From Fusobacterium varium (lineage in GTDB: Bacteria > Fusobacteriota > Fusobacteriia > Fusobacteriales > Fusobacteriaceae): a stretch of 64,000 nt of DNA. Below, piece after piece: positions 1-27,787 of the stretch. The notes beneath the pieces are model-generated. The model was not told where the DNA came from. It was given only the letters and a program-made list of their open reading frames with translations, and did no database searches. Where the stretch lies: the NCBI GenBank assembly GCA_900637705.1, contig LR134390.1, forward strand, positions 2,728,001-2,792,000, in the 5' to 3' direction. A program made the translations under genes and the position numbers. How positions within the stretch are numbered: position 1 is the first letter of the stretch; the number at the start of each line of letters is the position of its first letter.

Positions 1-3000
1 AACCATTTTGGATTTAAAATTCTTGATCTCATTATCCTTGCTGTTTCTTCATTTAAACTTTTTATTTTTACATTATTAGGATCACTGGTATTTCCACTAT
101 ATGATTTCGCTTCTTTTCCACTGGCATATTTTACTGCTGCTGTTAACCCACCATGATAAGCATAATAATCATCACTCTCCAGCATATCTAATTCCACTGA
201 TGCTTCATTTTTTACTGTAATATCTACATTTTGCAGTCTTTTTACAAACATATTTTCTAGTTTTGTTCCATGATAATTGCTGCTGTAGGCATGACTGCTC
301 CAATTTATATATGCTCGACCTAAATCATCCCTTGTTTCCCATTGCTGTGATTCTATTAATACTCTTACTCCTGTTCCATATGTTCCTGGAGGGCATCCAA
401 ATATTCTAACTTTAGATAAATTTTCAGCATCACTAAAACTGTATCCATCTTTCAATAGTTTTTCTATATCATCTTTTAGGTTCTTTTTTATATAGTTTAT
501 TTCATCGCTCTCGTCTAATTGAGAAACTATGTTTACAGCATCCTCTAAAAGTTTAATCAAAGTAGGAAATGTATCTCTAAACAATCCAGATATTCTCAAA
601 GTTACATCTATACGAGGTCTTTTTAATTCTTCATAAGGAATAACTTCTAATCCTATTACTCTATCTCCATTATTCAGCCATATTGGTCTTACCCCCATGA
701 GATATAATGCTTCAGCTATATCATCTCCATTGGTTTTTATTGTATCTCCACTATATAAAATCATAGCAATACTCTTTGGAAGTTCTCCCTCGTCCTGAAT
801 ATATCTTTTCATAAGTTCATCTGCCAGTTTTATTCCTACTTTCCAAGAGGCTCTTGATGGAATTTTATATGGATCAATGGAATAAAAATTTGTTCCTGTA
901 GGAAGAATATTTATATTACCTCTTGTAGGATATCCTGACTGTCCTGGAATAATAAACTTTCCATTAGCACCATTTACTATACTTTTCTTTTCTCTTTTTG
1001 TTTCTATAATTTTAGGGAGAATAACTTCTAAAATATTTTTTTCTAAAGTAACAATATAACTTTCATCTATTATTTTATACTCTGTATTTTTTTCAACTAC
1101 ATATTTATATTTCTTTTCTCCCAGTATCTCTTTTATTATATTCTCTGTTATATTTCTAATTTCAGCTATTACCATTAAATTGGTTTTTCCTTTATGATGA
1201 TACTTATAAGGATTTTCTTTCAAAACTTCTATATCATATCCCAAGCTCTTCCCCACTGCTTCATCTGCTGCCATCATTCCACAATTTTCAATTCTTAATA
1301 AAGCATATATCAATGATGCAAGTCTTTCTCCCTCTGGAGCTTCTCCTAATATATGAAGTCCATCTTTTATTATTGAACTTTTTAGTTCTTCTATATATGA
1401 ATGAAGTTTATTTATAAAAAGAGAATAATTTTTTCTTATATCTTCTTCAGTAATATTCATATCTAAATTATAATTATATTCAAGTACTCTTTTTATTATG
1501 GCTTCTTTCAACTCTATTACCTTAGAATCTTTTCCTAACTCAGCTAAATAATATTGCTTAATTAAATCGTCCATTTCTTCTATATCTTCATATTCTCCAG
1601 AAAGTGTAAGAACAGGAATCATGTATGAAATCAATACTGCATTGCTCCTTCTTTTAGCTTGCAGTCCTTCTCCAGAAATATTTATTGAATAAGGATATAG
1701 GTGTGGAATATCATCTATATTAAAATCTGGACAGCATTTATTACTTAAACCTACTTCTTTTCCTGGAAGCCACTCCAAAGTTCCATGAGTTCCCACATGA
1801 TAAATTACATCTGCTTTAAAAACTTCTTTTATCCATTTATAAAAAGAATAATATTGATGAGGAATAATAAAATCTGTACTATGATATATCTCTTCTGCTT
1901 TTTCTTCCATTCCTCTTGAAGGCTGTAATCCTATAAACACATTTCCATTAAGAATTCCTGGTACTGGGAATACATTTTCATAAATCATAAATTCTCCAGG
2001 AGCTTTTCCCCATTGTTCTTCTATTTTTTCTTGTACCTCTTTATCTAATTTAGAGAACCATTCCAGATACTTTTCTTCAGTAATTTTATCAATACTTCTC
2101 TCCAAAACTTTTTCACTGGTTAACCATTTTTTATCATTAGATACTCCTTTAATGATAGTATTTATTATTTCGTTTCCATCTTTAAATTCATACTCTGTCT
2201 TTATTCCCATATTTGAAAATAATTTCATCATATTATTTACTGAATTAGGAGTATCTAACCCAAAAGCTCTTCCTATCATATCATTTCTTGGAGGCATATT
2301 ATGGAAAATTACAGCTATTTTTTTGTCTTCATTTTTTTTCATTCCTAATTTTGCCCAATTTACAGCCATTCTAGATATTTTATTTACTCTCTCATCTATA
2401 GGAATAAATATTTTTTTCTCTCCATATTCATCTCTTATACTTTCATATGTACAACATGTTACAGAAATAATCTGTCCATCAAACTCTGGATAATAAACTC
2501 CTGTAGTCAAAGCTTCAGAATCGAGCCCCCTTATATCTTTTTCCCATGTTTCTCTGTTCTGATAAGTACTCATAGCCTGTATCACAGGTATTTCCAATTC
2601 TTCAAAAATACTTTTTTCTACTATAGAAGTTCCATCACCAGGATCGCTAAATATAGTTTGAGAATATGCCATTAGGTTAATTATTACCTTTGGAATTACT
2701 TTTCCTTTATATTTCAAATAATTTTCTATTACCCATTTTATCCCTTTAGATTTTATTTCTGGTTTTAAAATAGAATTTGTAAATATAGGGTATGGAACTA
2801 CTCCTAATTTTTTCAATTCTTCTATAAACTTATCTACTACTTTTATTCGTTTGCTGTTCCATTCTTTTCCATGAAATAAAACAGCAATTACCATGGGTTC
2901 TTTTGCTATTTTTTTTATAAAATTTTCCTCATCTTCTACTGCATTTCCATCATTATATATTCCTTCCCATCTCATATAAGTATATTTTTCATAAGGATAT

Positions 3001-3428
3001 TTTTTATCTCCCAGCTCTGAAGCTGTATAAAGAATCATGTTCTTACAATTCTCTTCTCCTCCCAATGTATAATACTTCGCCATATTATATGCTGTTGTTA
3101 CTGGAACTCCTCCATGTTCAACAAACTCTCTATTTTCATCAGAAATTGTGGTATTTATAAAAAATGGTATTTTTCCCCAAAATATATTTTTCAAATTCAT
3201 AAATTTTTTAAAACTTGAAACTCCTCCATGAAGAAGGATATAAACTATATTACTTGTTTTTATTTCTTCTTCAAGTTTTCTATATTCCTCATCTGATTTA
3301 TCTATTATATTAGATTTAAAGAAACTAAACTCAAAATCATCACAATATTCTTCTATTAGATTTTTACATATTTTGTTAAATGTGTAACTATTATCATAGT
3401 TTGATGTAATAAAAGTAATTTTAAACAT
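1..3428 (-). CDS. cobN: CobN/BchH-family chelatase large subunit (3' end outside window)
   Basis: CobN-type large subunit of metal chelatases, which in aerobic B12 synthesis inserts cobalt into hydrogenobyrinate a,c-diamide. I translated about 1142 residues in one open frame; the C-terminus lies beyond base 1. Family hallmarks are the HVGTHGTLEWLPGKE segment near residue 550 and the ISGEGLQAKRR segment near residue 585. The ATG at 3428 follows an AAAGAAG-type ribosome site; a better GGAGGGG sits 30 bases further up but has no ATG. It is the third gene after two BtuF-like binding proteins behind a cobalamin riboswitch. No CobS or CobT partner is visible here. HmuS of Bacteroidota haem loci is a CobN homologue reported to remove metal, so dechelation is an alternative to insertion (inference). 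Confidence 0.9.
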   Translation of the reverse strand, partial: MFKITFITSNYDNSYTFNKICKNLIEEYCDDFEFSFFKSNIIDKSDEEYRKLEEEIKTSNIVYILLHGGVSSFKKFMNLKNIFWGKIPFFINTTISDENREFVEHGGVPVTTAYNMAKYYTLGGEENCKNMILYTASELGDKKYPYEKYTYMRWEGIYNDGNAVEDEENFIKKIAKEPMVIAVLFHGKEWNSKRIKVVDKFIEELKKLGVVPYPIFTNSILKPEIKSKGIKWVIENYLKYKGKVIPKVIINLMAYSQTIFSDPGDGTSIVEKSIFEELEIPVIQAMSTYQNRETWEKDIRGLDSEALTTGVYYPEFDGQIISVTCCTYESIRDEYGEKKIFIPIDERVNKISRMAVNWAKLGMKKNEDKKIAVIFHNMPPRNDMIGRAFGLDTPNSVNNMMKLFSNMGIKTEYEFKDGNEIINTIIKGVSNDKKWLTSEKVLERSIDKITEEKYLEWFSKLDKEVQEKIEEQWGKAPGEFMIYENVFPVPGILNGNVFIGLQPSRGMEEKAEEIYHSTDFIIPHQYYSFYKWIKEVFKADVIYHVGTHGTLEWLPGKEVGLSNKCCPDFNIDDIPHLYPYSINISGEGLQAKRRSNAVLISYMIPVLTLSGEYEDIEEMDDLIKQYYLAELGKDSKVIELKEAIIKRVLEYNYNLDMNITEEDIRKNYSLFINKLHSYIEELKSSIIKDGLHILGEAPEGERLASLIYALLRIENCGMMAADEAVGKSLGYDIEVLKENPYKYHHKGKTNLMVIAEIRNITENIIKEILGEKKYKYVVEKNTEYKIIDESYIVTLEKNILEVILPKIIETKREKKSIVNGANGKFIIPGQSGYPTRGNINILPTGTNFYSIDPYKIPSRASWKVGIKLADELMKRYIQDEGELPKSIAMILYSGDTIKTNGDDIAEALYLMGVRPIWLNNGDRVIGLEVIPYEELKRPRIDVTLRISGLFRDTFPTLIKLLEDAVNIVSQLDESDEINYIKKNLKDDIEKLLKDGYSFSDAENLSKVRIFGCPPGTYGTGVRVLIESQQWETRDDLGRAYINWSSHAYSSNYHGTKLENMFVKRLQNVDITVKNEASVELDMLESDDYYAYHGGLTAAVKYASGKEAKSYSGNTSDPNNVKIKSLNEETARIMRSRILNPKW

Positions 3429-3480
3429 ATCTTCTTTTAAGATAAATATATAAATATTTATCTCTTCCCCTCCTATAAGT

Positions 3481-4368
3481 TTATTTTTCTTCATCTTTAA
3501 ATTGATACACAGTTTGTGCCAAATCTTCTATTCCTTCAATTACATATTGGGAATAAATATACACATATTTTCCAGGTATTACATATATTTGATTATTTTT
3601 TACAGCTTTTAAATCCTTATAGCTATTATCTTTTTTTATAAAATCAAGAATTTTATTGTCATTTTCTTTGATATCTGAAAAATTCTCCCATGTAGGAACC
3701 AGAATTATATCAGGGTCAATTTCTATAACTTTTTCTTTTGATAGCTTTGCAAAACGTCCTATTCCAATTTCTGCTGCTAAATTTATTCCATAAATTTTTT
3801 GAATCATATCATCAAAAATACTTCCTTTTCCATTTGTTCCTTCAGTATGTGAATACTCCAAAATTCTTGGTGCTGATTTTCCACTTCTTTTTATCTTTTC
3901 CTGTACAACAGCAAGTCTGTCATCCATATTTTTCACTATCTCTTTTCCCTTTTCTTCTGCATCTAATAATATAGCCAACTCCATTATTAACTCTTTCTGC
4001 TCTTCAAATGTTGTAGAAGTTTTATATGTATATACATTAATATCAGCATCTTCTAATTGGTCTGCTATTTCTTTTTTTAGCCAGTTAGCTGCAATTACTA
4101 AATCAGGTTCCATATCAATTATTTTTTCTATATTATTATCAATTTTTTCATATCTATCTAATTTTTTATTTAATACTGATGCCATTTCATTGACACTGGA
4201 ATGCCCACTAAATGCTATTATTCTTTCTCTATCTATTAAATCAAAAAGAATTTCATCTCCTGCCATAGACATAGAAACTATCCTATTGTATTTTTTATTT
4301 TCTATTTCTTTTGCATTTAAATTTCCTATTATAAATACCATAAAAAATAGGTATATTAATTTTTTCAT
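3481..4368 (-). CDS. BtuF/FepB-like periplasmic corrinoid-type binding protein (copy 1)
   Basis: Periplasmic substrate-binding protein of the helical-backbone (Peripla_BP_2) class used for B12, haem and siderophores. It has 295 residues, a normal length. An N-terminal signal peptide of about 19 residues ends near LNAKE. Typical landmarks are the N-terminal lobe (NRIVSMSMAGDEILFDL), the MEPDLVIA strand and a C-terminal lobe with IDPDIILVPTW. It is a paralogue of the adjacent upstream gene, with 18 bases between them, and precedes cobN by 52 bases. Its position behind a cobalamin riboswitch suggests a corrinoid or a related tetrapyrrole ligand. No permease or ATPase lies in this transcription unit, so it must use another transporter in the region (inference). 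Confidence 0.85.
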   Translation of the reverse strand: MKKLIYLFFMVFIIGNLNAKEIENKKYNRIVSMSMAGDEILFDLIDRERIIAFSGHSSVNEMASVLNKKLDRYEKIDNNIEKIIDMEPDLVIAANWLKKEIADQLEDADINVYTYKTSTTFEEQKELIMELAILLDAEEKGKEIVKNMDDRLAVVQEKIKRSGKSAPRILEYSHTEGTNGKGSIFDDMIQKIYGINLAAEIGIGRFAKLSKEKVIEIDPDIILVPTWENFSDIKENDNKILDFIKKDNSYKDLKAVKNNQIYVIPGKYVYIYSQYVIEGIEDLAQTVYQFKDEEK

Positions 4369-4386
4369 TCTCTCCTCCGAATTTTT

Positions 4387-5280
4387 TTAATCTTCTAATT
4401 GATACACTTCTTTCCCCAGCATTTCTATTGCATCTATTAAATATTGCGAAGTTATTGTTTGGTATTTATGTGCCACTATATATACTTTTTTCTCTTTCAC
4501 AGCTTTCACTTCCTCAAAACTTTTATCTTTTAGCAATATATCCAACAATTTATCTGTTCCTTTTTTTTCATGCATTCCCCATACCGGAATAAGTATTATT
4601 TCAGGATTTATATCTATAACCTTTTCTTTGGAAATTTTTCCTGTTCCCTTTAGCCCAAGCTCTGCTGCCAAATTTTGTCCATATATTAGTTTTATCATAT
4701 CATCATATAGTGTTCCTATTCCTTCTGTTTCCTCTATAGAAGAATAAAGAAGTATTCTTGGACTTGCTTTATCTTTTAATTTTTCTTTTATTTGTTTTTG
4801 AAGTTTCTCCAATCTTTTATCCATATCTTTTAAAATTTTTTTCCCTTGTTCTTGTTCATCTACAAGTTCTGCAAGTTCTCTAAAAAGTTTATGTTGTTCC
4901 TCATATGTCCTTGAAGTTTTGTACACAAAGGTATCTATTCCTGCATCCTCCAGTTGTGATATTTTATCTTTTCCCATCCAATCCATTATAAGTACTAAAT
5001 CAGGTTCTAAATCTATTACTAATTCTACATTATTTTCAACTTTTTCAAATTCCAATGTTTTGTTATATAACTCATCTGGACACTTTCCTTTTTTTATTTT
5101 TCCACTAAGAGCAGCTAGCCTACTTTTGTCTGTAATAAGGCTTAACAACATTTCATCACCATTCAATGTCAATGGAATTATTTTATTATATTTTTTCATT
5201 TTTTCTTGTGAAAATATATTTATTTGCACTATATTCCAGAATATTATCAGTATTAAAATTAATCTAAATATTTTTTTCAT
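4387..5280 (-). CDS. BtuF/FepB-like periplasmic corrinoid-type binding protein (copy 2)
   Basis: Second Peripla_BP_2 binding protein, 297 residues, first gene of the minus-strand unit that continues into cobN. It shows a hydrophobic signal peptide over roughly residues 5-24, the LTLNGDEMLLSLI N-lobe motif, LEPDLVLIMDW and INPEIILIPVWG. It shares the overall layout and several segments with the next gene (for example the DAGIDTFVYKTSRTYEEQ region), so the two arose by tandem duplication and then diverged. A terminator and a cobalamin riboswitch lie directly upstream, so synthesis should fall when cellular cobalamin is high. Ligand identity cannot be read from the sequence. Confidence 0.85.
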   Translation of the reverse strand: MKKIFRLILILIIFWNIVQINIFSQEKMKKYNKIIPLTLNGDEMLLSLITDKSRLAALSGKIKKGKCPDELYNKTLEFEKVENNVELVIDLEPDLVLIMDWMGKDKISQLEDAGIDTFVYKTSRTYEEQHKLFRELAELVDEQEQGKKILKDMDKRLEKLQKQIKEKLKDKASPRILLYSSIEETEGIGTLYDDMIKLIYGQNLAAELGLKGTGKISKEKVIDINPEIILIPVWGMHEKKGTDKLLDILLKDKSFEEVKAVKEKKVYIVAHKYQTITSQYLIDAIEMLGKEVYQLED

Positions 5281-5343: not shown

Positions 5344-5384
5344 GTCGTAAGTATAGAAATAGAATATTTCAATATATGACAAAT

Positions 5385-5535
5385 TGGTAAGTCTTCTGAC
5401 TCAGCTTCATCCTACTTTCACGCCTTCCCAGTTTCCCAGTGACATTTCTGTGATTTCGTCCACCATACAGCAGCTTTCGCTATGAGGGATTCTCACCCTA
5501 CTTCCTCTATTAAGCTATCGCACCTATTTTTGTTT
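5385..5535 (-). ncRNA. Cobalamin riboswitch (leader of the binding protein-cobN unit)
   Basis: The minus strand reads AATAGGTGCGATAGC, then AGGGTGAGAATCCCTC, then GCTGCTGTATGGTGGACGA, then CCACTGG-like and GGGAAGGCG segments, closing with GCTGAGTCAGAAGACTTACC. These are the B12-box and conserved core of the RF00174 cobalamin riboswitch. It lies downstream of a strong promoter and upstream of a terminator. It forms a divergent pair with the plus-strand riboswitch about 250 bases away. Confidence 0.93.
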
Positions 5536-5548
5536 TATTTACACCTAT

Positions 5549-5755: not shown

Positions 5756-5786
5756 TAAAGAGCTATGTTCAATTAAATATTTATTT

Positions 5787-5935
5787 TTGGTTTTAGTATA
5801 TACTGAATTAAAAGGGAAACAGGTTAAAGTCCTGTACGGTCCCGCCACTGTAAGGAGGATGAAAGTAAATTTCCACTAGGATAAAATTCTGGGAAGGATT
5901 ACAAGTAAAGCGATTCTGAGTCAGGAGACCTGCCA
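5787..5935 (+). ncRNA. Cobalamin riboswitch (leader of first TonB receptor operon)
   Basis: Contains AAAGGGAAACAGGTTAAAGT, CCTGTACGGTCCCGCCACTG, GGGAAGG and GAGTCAGGAGACCTGCC in order, the classic adenosylcobalamin (RF00174) core. It is almost base-for-base repeated at 11096-11245. Control is by the terminator 35 bases downstream. Confidence 0.95.
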
Positions 5936-5969
5936 TAAAATAATTAATCATATACTGCTTGCGAGGACG

Positions 5970-11066: not shown

Positions 11067-11095
11067 CATAAATATATTTCAATTAAATATTTATT

Positions 11096-11245
11096 TTTGG
11101 TTTTAGTATATACTGAATTAAAAGGGAAACAGGTTAAAGTCCTGTACGGTCCCGCCACTGTAAGGAGGATGAAAGTAAATTTCCACTAGAACAAAATTCT
11201 GGGAAGGGTTACAAGTAAAGCGATTCCAAGTCAGGAGACCTGCCA
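11096..11245 (+). ncRNA. Cobalamin riboswitch (leader of second TonB receptor)
   Basis: Same RF00174 core as at 5787 (CCTGTACGGTCCCGCCACTG, TCAGGAGACCTGCC). Only a handful of differences separate the two leaders from about 11079 to the terminator. Duplication of leader plus receptor is the simplest explanation. Confidence 0.95.
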
Positions 11246-11279
11246 TAAAATAATTAATCATATACTGCTTGCGAGGACG

Positions 11280-11337
11280 AGAAGTATAAAAGATATTTGT
11301 CTTTTATACTTCTCTAATTTTTTAGAGAAGTTTTTTA
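11280..11337 (+). terminator. Overlapping antiterminator/terminator hairpins
   Basis: First hairpin AGAAGTATAAAAGA/TCTTTTATACTTCT at 11280-11313; second ACTTCTCTAA/TTAGAGAAGT at 11308-11331 plus T6. They overlap in ACTTCT as in the other plus-strand leaders. Confidence 0.75.
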
Positions 11338-11435
11338 TTTGTCTATATTTCATTTCAAACATCAAGGTATTCATCGTATCAGTTCATCAGAGAATGACAG
11401 ACAGTCATCTTTATACATAAACACGGGAGGAAGAA

Positions 11436-13427
11436 ATGAAAAAAATTAGTTTAATACTTTTGGCTATTTTAGCAACAGAGGGAATGGCAGCTGAGAAAAA
11501 CAGTATTGCAAGTACAAGGCTTAATGAAACAGTTGTATCAACAGAAAACTTTGGTACAAGCGTCTTGGAAACACCAAAAAATGTTACTGTAATCACAGCA
11601 GCAGATATTGAAAAATATGGTGCTCAAAGTGTTGAGGAAGCCGTAAAATCAGTTCCAGGAATGTATATCAGCTCAACTGGTGGTCAAGATTTTATGGCCG
11701 ATATTATTTTCAGAGGACAAATACCTGGAAAATCTGCTCAAAATATTCTAGTGCTAGTAGATGGAAGTTCTATTAATAGCACCACAGATACAGGAGCATT
11801 CAATCTTAATCTTGTTCCTATAGATACTGTTGAAAGAATAGAAGTTGTTCCTAATGGAGGAAATGTTCTTTATGGAGAAGGTGCTGTTGGAGGGGTAATC
11901 AATATTATTACAAAAGAAGCACAGAATAAAAAATATTATGGACAGGCTGGAATAGAGAGAGGAAATTGGAATACAAGAAATTATAAAGTAAATGTTGGTT
12001 CACAAGTAACTGATAGATTCTCTTTAGAAGCAACATATTTAGATAAATCTATTGATGGTTACAGACATCATTCTGAAAGAGAAACTAAATATGCAGAAAT
12101 TAAATCAAAATATAGATTTGATAATGGAAATCTATATTTAAGCTATAGTAATGCTGAAGTAGATTCTAAATTTTCTGGTACTGTAGATAAAAAAGATAAA
12201 AGAAAAAGTAATTCAACTACTGAAGCAGAAGAAACTTTAGATATTTTCAGAATGAAATATGATACTCAATTCTCTGATAATCTAACATTTATGATTAACG
12301 GAGACTATAAACATAGAGAATATTCCTCTACAAGTATAAAAGATAAAATAGTTGGTGGAGTAAAAGTTCCTAAAAGAGTTCCAAGTACTGACAGAGATAC
12401 AAAAACTTATTATATCAATCCTCAAATAAAATATACTTATTGGGATAAATCATATTTAATATTAGGTGGAGATTTTTCCAAAGGAAAATCTGATTATCAG
12501 TCACAAAGTCATACAAGTACCGGTTCATCTACAACAGATACATACACAGAAAGAAAATCTATTGGTGGTTTCATCATAAATAATATGAAATACAATAATT
12601 TTCAATTTACACAAGGATTTAGACATCAAAAAATAGAGTATGACCTTGAAAATAGAAATGCTCCTTCTAAAAGTTTTGACCATTCATTTAATGAACAAGC
12701 TTATGAATTAACAGGTACATATTTTGCAAATGATTCATCTGCAATCTTTTTAACATATAATAGAGCTTTCAGAGCTCCTACTGCTGGAGAAGCTGGAAGT
12801 TGGAATACTCTTTATACTGATTTAGATGTTCAGACTTCTGATACTATAGAACTGGGTGCAAAAACTCTTTGGAATAGCTTATACTTTACAGGATCAATAT
12901 TCCATAGTAAAACTAAAAAAGAGATTTTTTATTTGACAAAAGCTAGTGGAGAACAGTCAAGTAATTATAATTTCCCAGATCCAATTTTGAGAACAGGTAT
13001 TGAACTTGCTTCTGAACAATATATAGATAAACTAACTTTAAGACAGAGTTTAAGCTATATTCACCATGAAATAGATGGTGGAAAATATGATGGGAAAAAA
13101 GTTCCTGGTTTACCTAATTATACAGCTAGTATAGGTTTCAATTATGAACTTATTGATAATCTTAACATTAATGCAACTCTATTCTATTATGGAAGTTCAT
13201 ATGCCCAATATGATTATCATAATAGACTTGGAAAACAAGGAGGACATAGTGAAACAAATCTAAATATTAACTATACTCTTAACAATGGACTGACTATTTA
13301 TGGTGGTGTAAACAATTTATTTGATAAAGAATACTACTATGCTAAAGCTTCTACTTCAACAGATACTCTTTCTTATTATGCTGGTAATAAAAGAAGCTAT
13401 TTTGTCGGATTTAAGTATAGTTTTTAA
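11436..13427 (+). CDS. TonB-dependent receptor, BtuB-like (copy 2)
   Basis: 663-residue outer-membrane receptor, closely similar over its whole length to the 6087-8081 product. It has the same signal peptide, the ETVVST TonB-box-like motif, the plug segment NVLYGEGAVGGVINIITK and a C-terminal YFVGFKYSF. Differences concentrate in barrel loops, for example DKIVGGVKVPKRVP replaces a shorter loop and the second-last loop is shortened. That would suit a shifted ligand preference (inference). It is monocistronic: riboswitch and terminator upstream, shared terminator with the convergent operon downstream. GGGAGG precedes the ATG. Confidence 0.92.
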   Translation: MKKISLILLAILATEGMAAEKNSIASTRLNETVVSTENFGTSVLETPKNVTVITAADIEKYGAQSVEEAVKSVPGMYISSTGGQDFMADIIFRGQIPGKSAQNILVLVDGSSINSTTDTGAFNLNLVPIDTVERIEVVPNGGNVLYGEGAVGGVINIITKEAQNKKYYGQAGIERGNWNTRNYKVNVGSQVTDRFSLEATYLDKSIDGYRHHSERETKYAEIKSKYRFDNGNLYLSYSNAEVDSKFSGTVDKKDKRKSNSTTEAEETLDIFRMKYDTQFSDNLTFMINGDYKHREYSSTSIKDKIVGGVKVPKRVPSTDRDTKTYYINPQIKYTYWDKSYLILGGDFSKGKSDYQSQSHTSTGSSTTDTYTERKSIGGFIINNMKYNNFQFTQGFRHQKIEYDLENRNAPSKSFDHSFNEQAYELTGTYFANDSSAIFLTYNRAFRAPTAGEAGSWNTLYTDLDVQTSDTIELGAKTLWNSLYFTGSIFHSKTKKEIFYLTKASGEQSSNYNFPDPILRTGIELASEQYIDKLTLRQSLSYIHHEIDGGKYDGKKVPGLPNYTASIGFNYELIDNLNINATLFYYGSSYAQYDYHNRLGKQGGHSETNLNINYTLNNGLTIYGGVNNLFDKEYYYAKASTSTDTLSYYAGNKRSYFVGFKYSF

Positions 13428-13442
13428 TATATACAATATTAT

Positions 13443-13472
13443 AATGAAGGGAGGCTTCTACCTCCCTTCATT
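13443..13472. terminator. Bidirectional terminator between convergent units
   Basis: AATGAAGGGAGG and CCTCCCTTCATT form a perfect 12-bp stem with loop CTTCTA, placed between the end of the second receptor and the end of the convergent ATPase gene. Confidence 0.85.
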
Positions 13473-14253
13473 ATTTATCAAAATCATCTGTAATAATTAC
13501 ACTTTTTAAGATTTTATCTTCTATTTTAGTATCAAGAATTTTTGTCTCTATCCCAAAATATTTTCTTAAATTATCCTCATTTATTATATCAGCAGTTTTT
13601 CCTATAATGTAATCATTCTTTCCCATTATCATAGATCTATCTGATATTCTCAAAGCATATTCTGGATAATGAGTATTAAAAATACAGGTTATTCCTCTCT
13701 CATTTACCAATTTTACTATTAATTTTAAAATGACAGCCTGGTTTTTAAAATCTAAATGAGATTCAGGTTCATCTAATATTAATATTTTAGGAGTTCCGAC
13801 TAAAGCTCTTGCCACAAATACCATTTGTAGCTGCCCTCCACTCAATTCAGAGCATTTTTTATCTATCAAATGAAGAATTCCTATTTCATCTAATACCTCT
13901 TCCACCAACTTTTGATCTTTTTTAGAAGGAGTAGAAAACATTCCAAGATATCTAGCTCTTCCCATTATAGTTAACTCTCTCACTGAATATGGAAATGAAA
14001 GATTATGTGCCTGAGGCACATATCCTATACTTTTTAATTCTTTTGGTGAACTTACTCTTTTGCCTCCTATATACATTTCTCCAGAACTCCATTTCAATAC
14101 ACCATTAAAACACTTTAAAAGAGTAGTTTTTCCTATTCCGTTCTGCCCTAGTATTGTAAAAATCTCTCCATCATTTATTTTTAAATTTATATCTTTTAAA
14201 ATCAAGTTATCTTTTAAATATCCAAAGTTTCCATTCTTTATTTCTAAGTTCAT
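13471..14253 (-). CDS. ABC transporter ATPase, FecE/BtuD-like
   Basis: 260-residue ATPase, last gene of the NifH-like operon. It has Walker A GQNGIGKTT, the Q-loop in YVPQAHN, the signature LSGGQLQ, Walker B ILILDEPESHLD and the switch histidine in NTHYPEY. It starts four bases after the permease stop. With the preceding permease and binding protein it makes a second complete BtuCDF-type importer, transcribed together with the nitrogenase-like genes and under the riboswitch at 18955. The C-terminal tail after residue 215 is charged and not recognisable. Confidence 0.92.
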   Translation of the reverse strand: MNLEIKNGNFGYLKDNLILKDINLKINDGEIFTILGQNGIGKTTLLKCFNGVLKWSSGEMYIGGKRVSSPKELKSIGYVPQAHNLSFPYSVRELTIMGRARYLGMFSTPSKKDQKLVEEVLDEIGILHLIDKKCSELSGGQLQMVFVARALVGTPKILILDEPESHLDFKNQAVILKLIVKLVNERGITCIFNTHYPEYALRISDRSMIMGKNDYIIGKTADIINEDNLRKYFGIETKILDTKIEDKILKSVIITDDFDK

Positions 14254-14257
14254 TTTA

Positions 14258-15259
14258 TCACCAGCTCTTGTATCTTTTAAATATAATAATAAAAAATGGT
14301 GCTCCTACCAAAGAAGTTAATATCCCTATTGGTATATCTGCTGCTGTCGCTGTTCTTGCTATTCCATCTATTAGCAGCATAAATATAGCTCCCACTACAC
14401 AAGAACTTGGTATTAATTTTGTATTATCCACTCCTATAAACATACGGCAGATATGAGGAATCAAAAGCCCTACCCATCCTATTATTCCTGTTATAGTTAC
14501 ACATGTGGCTGTAATCAAAGTAACCAATATTATTATAAAAGCTCTGATAGTACTGGGATTAACTCCCAATGAACGAACTTCATCATCTCCTAGGGAAAGA
14601 ATATTTATTCTCCATCTTAAAAGGTATAGAATTGTTATTCCTAAGCCAATAGGAATTACTGCTATCTTCAATCCAGAATATGAAACATTTGAAAAACTTC
14701 CCATAAGCCAATAAGTTATTGCTGGAAGTTTATCATAAGGATCAGCAGTATATTTAATCAAGGAAATAAGAGAAGCAAAAAGCGATGTCATCACCATTCC
14801 TGAAAGGACAAGAGAAAGAGTAGAACTCTCTCCTCTAACTCTTGATAAAATATATGTCACTCCTACACTTAATATTCCAAAAAACATAGCTAATATTACA
14901 ACATAGCCACTCATTCCAAAAAATAATATCCCAAGCACTGCACCAAAAGCTGATCCTGAGCTTACACTAATTACATCTGGACTTACAAGAGGATTTTGAA
15001 ATATCCCTTGAAGTGCTGTTCCTGATACAGCAAGTCCTGCTCCTACCACTACATTCATCAACACTCTTGGAATCCTAAGTTGATATATTATAGAACTTTC
15101 AATAGAAGTATTTTCTATGCCTTTTAGTCCTTCAACTATAATTGATACAAATATTGATGGAGATATATAAAATCTTCCTAAAAATATTCCTCCAAATATG
15201 CAAAAAATTAATATTCCTATAAGAAGCAGAAATTTCTGCCTATAATTATCCTTATACAT
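14258..15259 (-). CDS. FecCD-type ABC permease (BtuC-like)
   Basis: 333-residue inner-membrane permease. Family landmarks are YQLRIPRVLMNVVVGAGLAVSG, IFQNPLVSPDVISVSSGSAFG, DEVRSLGVN and IIGWVGLLIPHICRM. Hydrophobic throughout with about nine or ten membrane segments. It sits between the binding protein (12 bases upstream) and the ATPase (4 bases downstream) in one operon. Substrate is probably a corrinoid or another tetrapyrrole handled by the upstream NifH/NifD-like pair (inference). Confidence 0.9.
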   Translation of the reverse strand: MYKDNYRQKFLLLIGILIFCIFGGIFLGRFYISPSIFVSIIVEGLKGIENTSIESSIIYQLRIPRVLMNVVVGAGLAVSGTALQGIFQNPLVSPDVISVSSGSAFGAVLGILFFGMSGYVVILAMFFGILSVGVTYILSRVRGESSTLSLVLSGMVMTSLFASLISLIKYTADPYDKLPAITYWLMGSFSNVSYSGLKIAVIPIGLGITILYLLRWRINILSLGDDEVRSLGVNPSTIRAFIIILVTLITATCVTITGIIGWVGLLIPHICRMFIGVDNTKLIPSSCVVGAIFMLLIDGIARTATAADIPIGILTSLVGAPFFIIIFKRYKSW

Positions 15260-15270
15260 TTTATCCTCTC

Positions 15271-16328
15271 TTAAATATCAATTCCTTGATTTATTTTTAC
15301 ATTTAAAATAGTTTCTAATTGTTCCTCTGAAAGTTCATAATTAAAAAATTTAGAGTAAAAATCTTTGATGTCTTTTTTTATATTATATTCTTTAAAAATT
15401 TCAGGTTCAGCAATTTTAGCTATCCACTTAATCATAAGTGGTGTCTCTGCACAAGGCGCGTCCCATCTATAAATTCCTATTGGAGCTTTATATACTTTTT
15501 TATTTTTATAGCTTCAATATTTGCCCAATTTTGTCCACTGATTTTATTATTATAGAGATCATCTGGTTGTATATTATCAAAATTGCTCAAAATAATTATA
15601 TCTGGATTCCATACCATTACTTGTTCCATAGTCACTTTAGTCCAGTTTCCTGTTTTAATATCCTTAGTTACATTTTCTCCACCAGCCATATTTATCATAA
15701 TATCATTAACTGAATTTCCTGTTGCTACTGTTAATTGCGAATCTCTTATGTAAAGAATCTTTTTTCTTTTTATATTTTTTAATTCATTCTCTTTTGCTGC
15801 AAGATAGTTGTTTGTATCTTTATGATACGCTATAAGTTCACTTGCTTTTTCCTCTTTGTTGAAAATATCTCCCAATAATTTAATTCCTGCCTGTACATCT
15901 TCCAATGTTCCATATTTTATAGCCACTGAAGGAATTTTTATTTTATCAAGTTTTTCCTTTACCTCTCCTTGATAATCCCATATTACTACTAATTCAGGTT
16001 TTAAAAGAGCCAGTTCTTCATAATTCATATTAAAATTATTATCCACAAAAGTTGAATTTATTTTTTCCATCTCTGGAGCCATTTCCTTCAAGATACTTAT
16101 TTTATATGCTCCTATTGCTGATGGATGCATTCCTACAATCTTTGAAGCACTCCCATCTACTGCATAAGCAAGTGATGCCCATGGTATTGGAACTATAGCC
16201 ACCTTTTGAATATTATCTGATATTTCTACTTTCTTTCCTGTCAAATCAGTTACTATCTTTCCTTCAGCAGTTATACTTCCCAAAATAAATAATGAACACA
16301 TAAGTGCATAACTTAAAAACTTTTTCAT
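15271..16328 (-). CDS. BtuF-like periplasmic binding protein (frame break at 15496-15501)
   Basis: Peripla_BP_2 binding protein of about 352 residues after repair. The start at 16328 (MKKFLSYALM) follows AAAGGAG; an in-frame GTG nine bases earlier is possible. It has a signal peptide to about residue 22, VTDLTGKKVEISDNIQKVAI, and ALLKPELVVIWDY. As written, the frame ends at 15477 after KIKKYIKLQ. The coding signal continues in the -1 frame with VYKAPIGIYRWDAPCAETP and ends at 15271. The break lies in a T6 run (A AAA AAG on the coding strand); one extra A restores a normal protein. This is either a sequencing undercall (favoured) or -1 frameshifting. The GIYRWDAP segment suits the FeoB/haem-type binding-protein subgroup. 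Confidence 0.85.
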
Positions 16329-16352
16329 CCTTCCCACTCTCCTTTAATTATT

Positions 16353-18011
16353 TTATAGAAATTTTTTTAAATAATTATAACCATTTTCTCCACAATACTC
16401 ATATTCATAATCCATATATAATTTTGTACTATATCCAGGATGAATCATAGGAATAAAAATTTTATTTCCTTCAAATATTCTCTGATAAATTAAATCTCCT
16501 ACTATTATATCTGGATTATATTTTTCTTCCAATAATTTTAATTTTCCTTCATCTTCTATCATTTCTATTTCTTTGATATACTTATGTTGATAAGCTTTTT
16601 TCATTTTTCCAGATTTTCTTATAAAAGAAACAGCTTTAATCTCTGTCAATCCAAAATCTAATTTTAATATCTGCCTAATATTTTCTGCCATCACAGGTGA
16701 TGAAATAATCAATACTTTTCTTTCATCTATTTCTTTATATTTTATATCTTGTTTGTATTCCAGATTAAAATATTTCCCAAGTTCTTCTTTCATTTTTTCC
16801 ATGCTATATCTTCCCACAACATTTACTATTATATATGGAATATCATACTCTTTTTTCATGAATTCTGCCAGTTCTATCCCTTCATGACTTAATACTAAAT
16901 TTAATTCTGCACAAGTACTTTTTTCTATTGCCTCCAATGAAAGTCTATGAGAAAAAATACTTTGTATCTCTAATTTTAGATTTTTAATTGTTAAAAAGAA
17001 AGGTTTTAATTTTTCTATTTTTCCAAATGTTAAAGGAGTATATCCTAAAATATTCACACTATTTTTCTTTTTTTTATTTTCTTTCATAAATTTTTTTCCA
17101 AGATTTTTTAAAGCAAGAGATACTCCTGAATAATAATTAGAAAATCCACTTGTATTTAAAGATATTACAGGAAGATTTGTTTCTTTTTCTACTTTTTCAG
17201 CAATACTTTCAATATCCATGCCTATTATAGCTGGAACAACTGTTTTTATAATAACAATAAAGTCTATTTTCTTATTTTTTATCAGTACATTTTTTATCTT
17301 TTCATTCAGTTCCTTTATATCTCCAAGAAGAATTTCTATTTCTCCCATAGTACTGCAATATACAATACTTTCATTTATATTTCTTATCTCATCATAAATA
17401 ATTGGAGTTTTACATCCTCCAGGAGAAATAACAACTTTCAATATTTTAGAAGAATATAATGCTGAACAAACTCCAGAATAATCAGAAACTATTGGAGGGA
17501 TATAATGTTGTATTTTCCCTTTTGATTTTGCTTTTTTTATATTTATAATTTTCTCATTTTGATTCAATTCTTCTTTTAATTCTGTTAATAAATTTTTTAA
17601 TCTTTCTTTTGGAAATATTTTTCTCTTAGAAATTGGTCCTCTTTCTAAAACTTTTACTATTATTCCATACTCTTTTTTTATTCTTTTTATCAACAAATTA
17701 AAATCGCTACACATAAGTATATCTCCACAAGTCTTATAAATAATGATTGAATCAATCTCTTTATATTTTTCATTAATTATCTCTATTAATGATTTTTCTA
17801 AATTATTTATATGCTCTCCTGACAGCATCTCTATTTCATTTACTGGAAATGTATAAAGTTTCTCATTTTTATTTTCTCTTACTGACTCATTATATAAAAC
17901 ATTTAAACATCCTACAGGTCCTATAGAAACAATTATATTTCTTGGGATTTGTAACAATTCCTTCAGCATTTTATTTATTTCTCTATCTAAAAGGCATCTT
18001 TCTAGTTCCAT
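16353..18011 (-). CDS. Nitrogenase component 1-like oxidoreductase subunit
   Basis: 552-residue member of the NifD/NifK/BchN/BchB/CfbD superfamily, by motif reading. The core from about residue 170 carries SGVC (Cys182), PGGC (Cys200) and IVYC (Cys219). It also has KTVVPAIIGMDIE, where nitrogenases have TCPxxIIGDDI, then LPVISLNTSGFS, so the usual third cluster cysteine is Val258. Unusually, residues 25-125 look like an extra copy of the first subdomain, with IGPVGC (Cys35) and IYKTCGDILMC (Cys95, Cys101). It is downstream of the NifH-like gene (4-base gap), with no second component-1 gene, so a homo-oligomer as in CfbD is likely (inference). Expected role: ATP-dependent reduction of a small molecule, plausibly a tetrapyrrole given the B12 control. 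It is not a true nitrogenase: no nif assembly genes are present. Confidence 0.8.
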   Translation of the reverse strand: MELERCLLDREINKMLKELLQIPRNIIVSIGPVGCLNVLYNESVRENKNEKLYTFPVNEIEMLSGEHINNLEKSLIEIINEKYKEIDSIIIYKTCGDILMCSDFNLLIKRIKKEYGIIVKVLERGPISKRKIFPKERLKNLLTELKEELNQNEKIINIKKAKSKGKIQHYIPPIVSDYSGVCSALYSSKILKVVISPGGCKTPIIYDEIRNINESIVYCSTMGEIEILLGDIKELNEKIKNVLIKNKKIDFIVIIKTVVPAIIGMDIESIAEKVEKETNLPVISLNTSGFSNYYSGVSLALKNLGKKFMKENKKKKNSVNILGYTPLTFGKIEKLKPFFLTIKNLKLEIQSIFSHRLSLEAIEKSTCAELNLVLSHEGIELAEFMKKEYDIPYIIVNVVGRYSMEKMKEELGKYFNLEYKQDIKYKEIDERKVLIISSPVMAENIRQILKLDFGLTEIKAVSFIRKSGKMKKAYQHKYIKEIEMIEDEGKLKLLEEKYNPDIIVGDLIYQRIFEGNKIFIPMIHPGYSTKLYMDYEYEYCGENGYNYLKKFL

Positions 18012-18015
18012 TCCT

Positions 18016-18905
<890 letters not shown>

Positions 18906-18954
18906 GTCAAATATTAAAAAACTATTTAAAAAATAGCATATTTTTATATGACCA

Positions 18955-19105
18955 TTGGTAAGTCTTCTGACTCAGCTTCATCCTACTCTCACGCCTTCCC
19001 AGTTTCCCAGTGACATAATATGATTTCGTCCACTATACAGCAGCTTGCGCTGTGGGAGATTCTCACTCCTCTTCCTCTATTAAGCTTATATGCACCTAAT
19101 CATCT
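18955..19105 (-). ncRNA. Cobalamin riboswitch (leader of the NifH/NifD-like operon)
   Basis: Minus strand shows TTAGGTGCATATAAGC, AGGAGTGAGAATCTCCC, GCTGCTGTATAGTGGACGA, CACTGGGAAACTGGGAAGG and GAAGCTGAGTCAGAAGACTT, the RF00174 core. It closely resembles the leader at 5385-5535. Confidence 0.93.
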
Positions 19106-19127
19106 TTTTTATTTAAATAACATTTTT

Positions 19128-19377: not shown

Positions 19378-19408
19378 TTGATTAAAGATATTACAATAAA
19401 ATATTTAT

Positions 19409-19560
19409 TTTTGGTTCTAGTATTACTAGATTAAAAGGGAAACAGGTTTAAATCCTGTACGGTCCCGCCACTGTAATGAGGATGAAAGCAAATTACCACT
19501 GAATATAATATTTGGGAAGGTATGTGAGTAAAATGATTCTAAGTCAGGAAACCTGCCATA
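19409..19560 (+). ncRNA. Cobalamin riboswitch (leader of the 139-residue ORF)
   Basis: AAAGGGAAACAGGTTTAAAT, CCTGTACGGTCCCGCCACTG, GGGAAGG and AAGTCAGGAAACCTGCC in order. It is related to, but more diverged than, the two receptor leaders. Confidence 0.94.
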
Positions 19561-19592
19561 AATAATATTGATTATACAGCTCACGAGGATTG

Positions 19593-19650
19593 GGAAGTAT
19601 AAAAGAATAAAAACTTTTATACTTCTCTTATTATTAAGAGAAGTTTTTTA
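19593..19650 (+). terminator. Overlapping antiterminator/terminator hairpins
   Basis: GAAGTATAAAAG/CTTTTATACTTC at 19593-19624 overlaps ACTTCTCTTA/TAAGAGAAGT at 19621-19644, which is followed by T6. Same mutually exclusive design as the two receptor leaders. Confidence 0.75.
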
Positions 19651-19680
19651 TTTTGGCTTGCTCTAGTATTAGGGAGGATA

Positions 19681-20100
19681 ATGATGGTCTTAAAAGAATT
19701 AAAAGAAATATTTGAAGAAATGCTTACAAAAGGAGAATGGGAAAATAATGTTCTTCTTAATATGGAACTATCTCAATATTCAAAATATCATATTCCTATT
19801 GAAATTATTATAAGAGGAAAAGACAGCAAAGGAAATAATTTATACATAATGGGAAATAAAAATGAATTTGGATTTCCTAACTTTTTTCCTGAAGAAACTA
19901 TTAAAGTGTATGACCATATACCTACTCTTTTAGAACTATATTATGATCTTTTTATTAATAAAAATTCATCTTTAAAATTAGAAACTCTATTATTCTTATC
20001 TATTGATTACAATAAATATTTTAACTTAGGAAATGCAACTTCTATTGAAAGCATAAAAAAAGTTTTTTCTTTTGATGATACTATTCTAATTTGTAATTAA
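19681..20100 (+). CDS. Hypothetical cytoplasmic protein under a cobalamin riboswitch
   Basis: 139-residue protein that I do not recognise. GGGAGG precedes two adjacent ATG codons (19681 and 19684); either may be used. No signal peptide, membrane segment or cysteine cluster is visible; the only Cys is the penultimate residue. The sequence is mixed alpha/beta with an amphipathic start (LKELKEIFEEMLTK), a central IIIRGKDSKGNNLYIMG and acidic Asp/Glu patches. It is the only gene of its transcription unit, with its own promoter, riboswitch and terminator. A role in cobalamin or cobalt homeostasis is implied by regulation alone; no function is assigned. Confidence 0.75.
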   Translation: MMVLKELKEIFEEMLTKGEWENNVLLNMELSQYSKYHIPIEIIIRGKDSKGNNLYIMGNKNEFGFPNFFPEETIKVYDHIPTLLELYYDLFINKNSSLKLETLLFLSIDYNKYFNLGNATSIESIKKVFSFDDTILICN

Positions 20101-27525: not shown

Positions 27526-27617
27526 ATTTTCAATAGGTATAAATATTATTTTTAATAAATATATCATTATTGTATAATAATTCATCACTCTTATCTCCCC
27601 GATAAAAGCTAAAACTA

Positions 27618-27772
27618 AAATTAGATAAGTCTCCTGGCTTGATTTCACTTTACTCCTATCCCTTCCCAGAATTTTCCAGTGGTTTTGATAGTTTCATCCA
27701 TCTTACAGTAGCGGGGGCTGCGTAGGAATTTAACCTACTTCCTCTTTTAAGCTATAAGCACCTAATTTTTAT
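27618..27772 (-). ncRNA. Cobalamin riboswitch (leader of the Nik/Opp-MATE operon)
   Basis: Minus strand reads TTAGGTGCTTATAGCTTAAA, GAGGAAGTAGG, GCAGCCCCCGCTACTGTAA, CCACTGG, CTGGGAAGGG and AAGCCAGGAGACTTATC, the RF00174 core with a variant B12 box (GCCAGGAGAC). It is the most diverged of the six in the window. Confidence 0.92.
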
Positions 27773-27787
27773 ATATTTCTAATAAAA

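Follow-up and report, generated by a model that had tools for sequence, protein, structure and literature searches.

A fused nitrogenase-like component-1 protein with a reduced D part in a cobalamin riboswitch operon of Fusobacterium varium

In the stretch of 64,000 nucleotides from Fusobacterium varium that was analysed here (the window), one minus-strand gene encodes a protein in which a D subunit, trimmed to its cluster-binding domain, is joined to a complete K subunit. This architecture is well supported. The fused DK protein is a member of the nitrogenase component-1 superfamily, and we class it as a new architectural variant there and not with nitrogenase, DPOR or CfbD. Its gene lies second in an operon with the order H, fused DK, binding protein, permease and ATPase, behind a cobalamin riboswitch. 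The features referred to in the following are:

18941..19114, minus strand: cobalamin riboswitch RF00174 at the operon head (67.6 bits, gathering cut-off 31.5, E 1.6e-14)
18016..18840, minus strand: NifH/CfbC-like reductase (PF00142), P-loop and both cluster cysteines present, its frame disrupted by a single base in the A7 run at 18690-18696
16353..18011, minus strand: fused D(domain I)-K component-1 protein, 552 aa, ATG start
17562..18011, minus strand: N-terminal part of this protein (residues 1-150), which is domain I from a subunit of the D type (NifD/NifE/BchN) and contains C35 and C95 (PF00148, D-HMM, VIA-align)
17622..17642, minus strand: RGPxxKR signature of the reduced-D clade, residues 124-130 (motif comparison)
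16356..17516, minus strand: K-type component-1 core, residues 166-552, with D177, C182, C200 and, at the third-Cys position, Val258 (K-HMM, VIA-align)
15271..16337, minus strand: periplasmic substrate-binding protein of the BtuF/FecB/IsdE type (PF01497, E 8.7e-17), frame broken near 15486-15513
14258..15259, minus strand: permease of a BtuC/FecCD-type importer (BLASTP 2.5e-90 to a Treponema permease)
13471..14253, minus strand: ATPase of the same importer (BLASTP 5.4e-82 to a Treponema ATPase)
11081..13427, plus strand: cobalamin riboswitch (11081-11261, RF00174, 125.8 bits) followed by a TonB-dependent receptor (11436-13427), both running towards the end of the operon

Domain architecture and the putative cluster site

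The whole protein matches PF00148 in two stretches with 150.2 bits (cut-off 28.6). Scanned separately with Pfam, residues 1-150 reach an E-value of 4.4e-6 over profile positions 11-110 and residues 151-552 one of 1.8e-37 over positions 42-376. The match of residues 1-150 alone bears out an earlier note on this DNA, which had placed a nitrogenase-type cluster-binding domain I at the N-terminus. The same note had remarked on the absence of a partner gene, and the fused gene is indeed the sole PF00148 gene of the 3.3 Mb genome, a second component-1 gene being absent. As had been supposed, one chain carries ligand positions which a pair of subunits would normally supply, and the genome has no partner gene.

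Structure models point in the same direction. AlphaFold2 modelled the N-domain alone with a pLDDT of 85 and the whole chain with a pLDDT of 80 and a pTM of 0.81, the order of alpha and beta elements being identical in both halves. Aligned to solved structures with VIA-align, the core fits best on BchB (Z 35.5, rmsd 3.0 A, 371 residues) and the N-domain best on BchN (Z 13.6, rmsd 5.0, 151 residues), with NifD and other D-type chains tying within 1 Z for the latter. As the N-domain is nearest to BchN and the core nearest to BchB, each half of the chain has its counterpart in a different subunit of a DPOR-like complex. An N-terminal fold unrelated to the nitrogenase subdomain, which the earlier note had considered, was not seen in a model that shares its alpha/beta order with the core and matches BchN best. 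On the NifE-NifN chain 9i0g only residues 169-552 could be matched, and no simultaneous fit of N-domain and core was obtained.

To assign the two halves, profiles were made for the D and K subunits that split (unfused) operons encode. Residues 1-150 of the window protein score 49 bits with the D profile versus 0.2 bits with the K profile, while its core reaches 237 bits with the K profile. The eight fused N-domains all behave alike (15-55 bits for D, at most 6.5 bits for K), as do the cores of the seven full-length proteins (105-238 bits for K, at most 51 bits for D). In profile-profile comparison the fused N-domain matches D with a probability of 98.3%, K with 53% and its own core with 37.7%. 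The earlier description of an extra copy of the first subdomain before a complete core is therefore correct in so far as a domain I precedes a complete K-type core, but the D/K profiles and the BchN/BchB folds identify this domain as the remnant of a partner D subunit and not as a subdomain copied from the core. A tandem duplication of domain I within the protein itself, to which two PF00148 matches within one chain might point, has next to no probability and was ruled out, as the N-domain resembles D much more than it does K or the core and an unfused D-prime/K pair exists in the genome G580 (see below).

All residues highlighted beforehand (C35, C95, C101, C182, C200, C219 and Val258) are found at their given positions of the 552-aa open reading frame on the minus strand. 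Of the proposed set of six cysteines, however, only C35, C95 and C200 are invariant across the fused proteins, whereas C101 and C219 are not conserved even among the nearest relatives; C182 is retained, among fused proteins, only in the window's relatives and in Lachnospiraceae bacterium TWA4. C35 and C95 are invariant in the N-domain and D rows of the alignment, and C200 together with D177 in the K rows. Alignment to AnfD and NifE assigns C35 to the cysteine of GPxxC and C95 to that of TC(x5)GDD, both being P-cluster positions, and C200 aligns with the first P-cluster position in the K half of solved chains. Val258 does occupy the third position, as had been pointed out, but this position is mostly Val or Pro and never Cys in split K subunits. 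As the trait also occurs there, it is neither specific to the fusion nor a consequence of it.

Judging from residue conservation, each chain would be expected to hold one [4Fe-4S] cluster between its two domain I units, with C35, C95 and C200 as ligands and D177 (favoured by conservation), C182 or C6 as the fourth; the type of cluster is presumed and the convergence of these residues in three dimensions predicted. The cluster of DPOR is held by three cysteines from BchN and one aspartate from BchB. With three cysteines plus one further ligand, as in DPOR, the ligand count is DPOR-like rather than P-cluster-like.

Relatives and stepwise reduction of the D subunit

Proteins of the same architecture, 550-560 aa in length, are encoded in two further genomes of the window's phylum, namely G029 (62% identity) and G017 (54%). 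Scanning genome contigs and searching 397 genomes from the family around TWA4 revealed five more genomes with a fused gene (TWA4, G156, G277, G337 and G231, the protein of the last being cut short). The fused architecture is thus present in eight genomes in all, and a ninth, G580, holds an unfused intermediate. There, at locus L180, a shortened D of 273 aa directly precedes a separate K of 405 aa. As this D covers PF00148 positions 10-244 of 399, it is without domain III, and it matches the N-domain of the window protein at 8.6e-31.

The motif RGPxxKR is present in all nine reduced-D proteins versus none of 21 full-length D subunits. In the K tree, the branch dividing reduced-D from full-D proteins has a support of 99/97 and occurs in all bootstrap trees, and the unfused G580 protein clusters with the three fused proteins that belong to the window's family (90/89). 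The AU test does not reject a grouping of all fused proteins in one clade (p 0.10), and one or two fusion events both fit. The sequences suggest a likely history in which a full D of 417 aa would first have lost domain III (273 aa) and later domain II, together with fusion to K.

The nearest split relatives are located on plasmid pTS1 of Treponema saccharophilum, in the order nifH, component 1 (417 aa), component 1 (390 aa), binding protein, permease and ATPase, and many genomes of Lachnospiraceae and Ruminococcus carry this split gene set as well. These HDK operons beside FecCD-type importers are closest to the window operon by sequence and share H, K, binding protein, permease and ATPase with it; unlike it, they encode D and K as separate, full-length proteins and lack RGPxxKR, and none of 20 loci with a full-length D has a cobalamin riboswitch.

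Operon partners and cobalamin context

The 3′ part of the nifH-like gene matches PF00142 with an E-value of 6.4e-68, while its P-loop lies in a neighbouring frame, giving a split match (1-52 and 49-274). Similarly, two frames of the binding-protein gene match the intact G029 protein at 74-79%. That two of five genes are frameshifted could suggest a decaying, non-functional operon in the window's strain, a reading to which we give only a slim chance and which was rejected. The DK gene is open, and both the nifH-like and the binding-protein gene are intact in G029 and G017. Moreover, in a sample of 20 stretches of 20 kb of the window's genome plus the window, four of 15 testable proteins of the related genome G028 were split in the window's assembly, whereas the reverse was seen for none of 18. 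Because of this imbalance, the two frameshifts are likely assembly errors.

The G017 orthologues of the partners were compared with characterised families. The NifH partner matches CfbC best (336 bits), under the model's cut-off of 402, and the permease matches BtuC best (203 bits), under the equivalog cut-off of 461. For the ATPase, heme and corrinoid ABC ATPases are the best matches, again under the equivalog cut-offs, and the binding protein matches heme, B12 and Fe-dicitrate types with none singled out. No NifH gene adjoins the fused DK gene of TWA4. The operon of G156 contains a stand-alone protein with a CdhD/CFeSP corrinoid-binding domain, which also weakly resembles HgcA (L107 11211-11912, minus strand).

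The riboswitch at 18941-19114 lies on the coding strand, about 100 nt upstream of the nifH-like start. Six of the nine reduced-D loci have a cobalamin riboswitch at the operon head (window, G029, G337, G277, G231 and G580), whereas none was found upstream at the reduced-D loci of G017, G156 and TWA4. It precedes nifH in G029 and G337, and the binding-protein gene in G277 and G231, which have a different gene order. The riboswitch indicates regulation by B12; it does not make B12 the substrate.

Five further cobalamin riboswitches were found within the same 25 kb of the window, at 5369-5542 (minus), 5771-5951 (plus), 11081-11261 (plus), 19395-19574 (plus) and 27607-27780 (minus). They head a binding-protein/CobN operon, two TonB receptors with near-identical N-termini, a 139-aa open reading frame and, behind 27607-27780, a Nik-type ABC operon. 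With its six cobalamin riboswitches this region is a B12-regulated island. TonB-siderophore and TonB-B12/BtuB models are among the best matches of the receptor at 11436-13427. The 139-aa frame follows a riboswitch of 114 bits (19395-20100, plus strand) and matches no Pfam or NCBIfam family above cut-off. At 1-5280 (minus strand), after two periplasmic binding proteins and a cobalamin riboswitch, lies a CobN/BchH-like chelatase (PF02514, 1066 bits), of which a second copy, split in two frames, is located about 10 kb outside the window. Locus L180 of G580 has a second cobalamin riboswitch (12844-13027, minus strand, 113.5 bits) upstream of an unrelated-looking 352-aa protein, and a c-di-GMP-I riboswitch (5357-5446, minus strand) just beyond the operon's end.

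De novo corrin genes are kept in all eight fused-gene genomes, which implies that these genomes use B12. A missing adenosyltransferase was tried as an explanation and gave no clear pattern across genomes, BtuR and PduO types being jointly missing only in TWA4, G156 and the non-holder G020.

Possible function and comparison with known systems

We propose that the fused DK protein serves as catalytic component in a DPOR-like, ATP-driven reductase of two components that would act on an imported corrinoid, with substrate and reaction inferred; to our judgement this proposal has an even chance of being correct. The operon would be switched on via the riboswitch when B12 is short, and the importer would bring in a corrinoid. 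The fused chains would probably form a homodimer held together by their K halves. A NifH-like dimer would hydrolyse ATP and pass low-potential electrons through the cluster to the corrinoid, which may be bound in the open cleft left by the absent D domains. The likely outcome would be reduction of the imported corrinoid from Co(III)/Co(II) to Co(I), or loss of its upper ligand, allowing adenosylation. Points in favour of a corrinoid are the riboswitch in two gene orders, BtuC as best match of the permease, the CfbC-like Fe protein (CfbC being the Fe protein of a tetrapyrrole reductase), the corrinoid-binding-domain protein in the G156 operon and the use of B12 implied by the corrin genes of all eight fused-gene genomes. 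Points against it are that the type of importer does not distinguish a corrinoid from heme or a siderophore, that no riboswitch was found upstream at three reduced-D loci (G017, G156 and TWA4) and that TWA4 has no NifH gene next to its fused gene. Since relatives with full-length D possess this importer but no B12 riboswitch, a different substrate may be handled in the wider family. The broader idea, that the protein represents a new branch of the nitrogenase superfamily in B12 metabolism, with D reduced stepwise (417 aa, 273 aa, domain I) and fused to K, and is the smallest known two-sided component 1, is put forward tentatively and seems to us just short of an even call.

Instead of a corrinoid, a chelate of cobalt or another metal might be the substrate of the same architecture, with a metallophore being imported and its metal freed by the reductase, under riboswitch control as B12 needs cobalt. 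The resemblance of permease and binding protein to the FecCD/Fhu type would fit this rather unlikely scenario, as would the split relatives, which have the same importer without a B12 riboswitch, and the Nik-type ABC operon behind one of the window's other cobalamin riboswitches (27607-27780). However, BtuC is the permease's best match, BtuB models rank among the best matches of the nearby TonB receptors that follow cobalamin riboswitches, and the operon of G156 includes a corrinoid-binding domain.

Cobalamin riboswitches commonly control genes for alternative corrin synthesis or B12-independent routes. That the reductase performs such an alternative step, or serves a B12-sparing route when B12 is short, would be in line with this general pattern and with the CfbC-like NifH partner, yet appears improbable in view of the near-constant linkage with an importer and not with cbi genes. 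Replacement of the corrin reductase CbiJ was rejected, since each of the 14 genomes tested, whether holder or non-holder, has both CbiJ and CbiD; the obvious reductase step is not missing, which argues against a gap in corrin synthesis.

We consider it very improbable that the enzyme is a heme or iron-tetrapyrrole reductase or a de-chelation partner, with B12 control as a side effect of the local island. The DPOR-like fold class, the IsdE and heme ABC matches and the CobN/BchH-like chelatase in the window could be cited for it, but the association with the riboswitch recurs in Bacillota with other neighbours. In addition, the CobN family is missing from six of the eight fused-gene genomes (G017 and the five Lachnospiraceae-group holders), by which the chelatase was also rejected as an obligatory partner.

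Among characterised enzymes, DPOR, the dark-operative protochlorophyllide reductase (BchL/BchN-BchB), is similar to the preferred corrinoid reductase in that core and N-domain fit best on BchB and BchN, the reductase is of the NifH type, and a [4Fe-4S] cluster instead of a P-cluster and no FeMo-cofactor would be expected. In contrast to DPOR, the D subunit is reduced to domain I and fused to K, so that a single gene stands in place of a heterotetramer of two full-length subunits, the ligand positions are divided 2 + 2 between the D and K parts and not 3 + 1, and the protein is linked with a BtuCD-type importer and a cobalamin riboswitch. The scores for the DPOR/COR equivalogs are far under their cut-offs (BchB 64.5 bits versus 490, BchN 30 versus 420). 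With CfbCD the window system shares the best match of its NifH partner (CfbC), a single type of catalytic chain and a possible tetrapyrrole substrate. CfbD is, however, a homodimer of one unfused subunit (PMC12176620, PMC11423573), whereas the window chain consists of two non-identical homologous domain I units of D and K type. Compared with the nitrogenases (NifDK/VnfDK/AnfDK), the six P-cluster cysteines, three per subunit, are absent, with only C35, C95 and C200 being invariant, and so is a complete D, whose domains II and III would carry FeMo-cofactor ligands, as only domain I of D is left.

In recent papers, all nitrogenase-like catalytic components are described as heterotetramers of two full subunits, with the exception of the homodimeric CfbD (PMC11423573, PMC12176620). 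With one subunit pared down to its cluster-binding domain, the window chain is a third architecture. It can be regarded as a natural deletion experiment on nitrogenase, separating what electron delivery needs from what the cofactor pocket alone needs, and the series of D reductions, if true, would reveal the indispensable part of D. In the searchable literature, with subscription papers lying outside it, no paper was found that links a nitrogenase-like enzyme to a cobalamin riboswitch or that deals with a fused-DK system. The combination of B12 riboswitch and B12-type importer suggests an undescribed role of this enzyme family in handling B12-like molecules, and the riboswitch leads to a concrete and cheap functional test for orphan nitrogenase-like enzymes of gut anaerobes.

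Two component-1 subunits per chain also occur in NifEN, as the fused NifE-NifN (PDB 9i0g chain), and in full-length D-K fusions (L112-L115). In contrast to the window protein, whose D is without domains II and III, these keep both subunits whole (812-919 aa). The full-length D-K fusions of this study, with 812-888 aa, are located at L112 7354-9792, L113 11692-14259, L114 7448-10012 and L115 1934-4600 and adjoin hydrogenase-maturation genes, of which HypF, HypD and HypE (L112) and HydF (L113) were confirmed by profiles and the others were assigned by eye. The same system is present in unfused form at L111, near LarB/LarC. Going by these neighbours, this nitrogenase-like system is linked to genes for hydrogenase maturation or for a nickel cofactor. 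TWA4 also carries a second HDK locus of the nitrogenase-like kind (L104 6491-9880), in which the nifH and K genes look frame-broken, the 3′ part of nifH being read into D. Other species of the window's genus, G026 and G028, encode different nitrogenase-like D/K pairs of about 400-440 aa per subunit (L006, L008 and L016), G028 having two such pairs.
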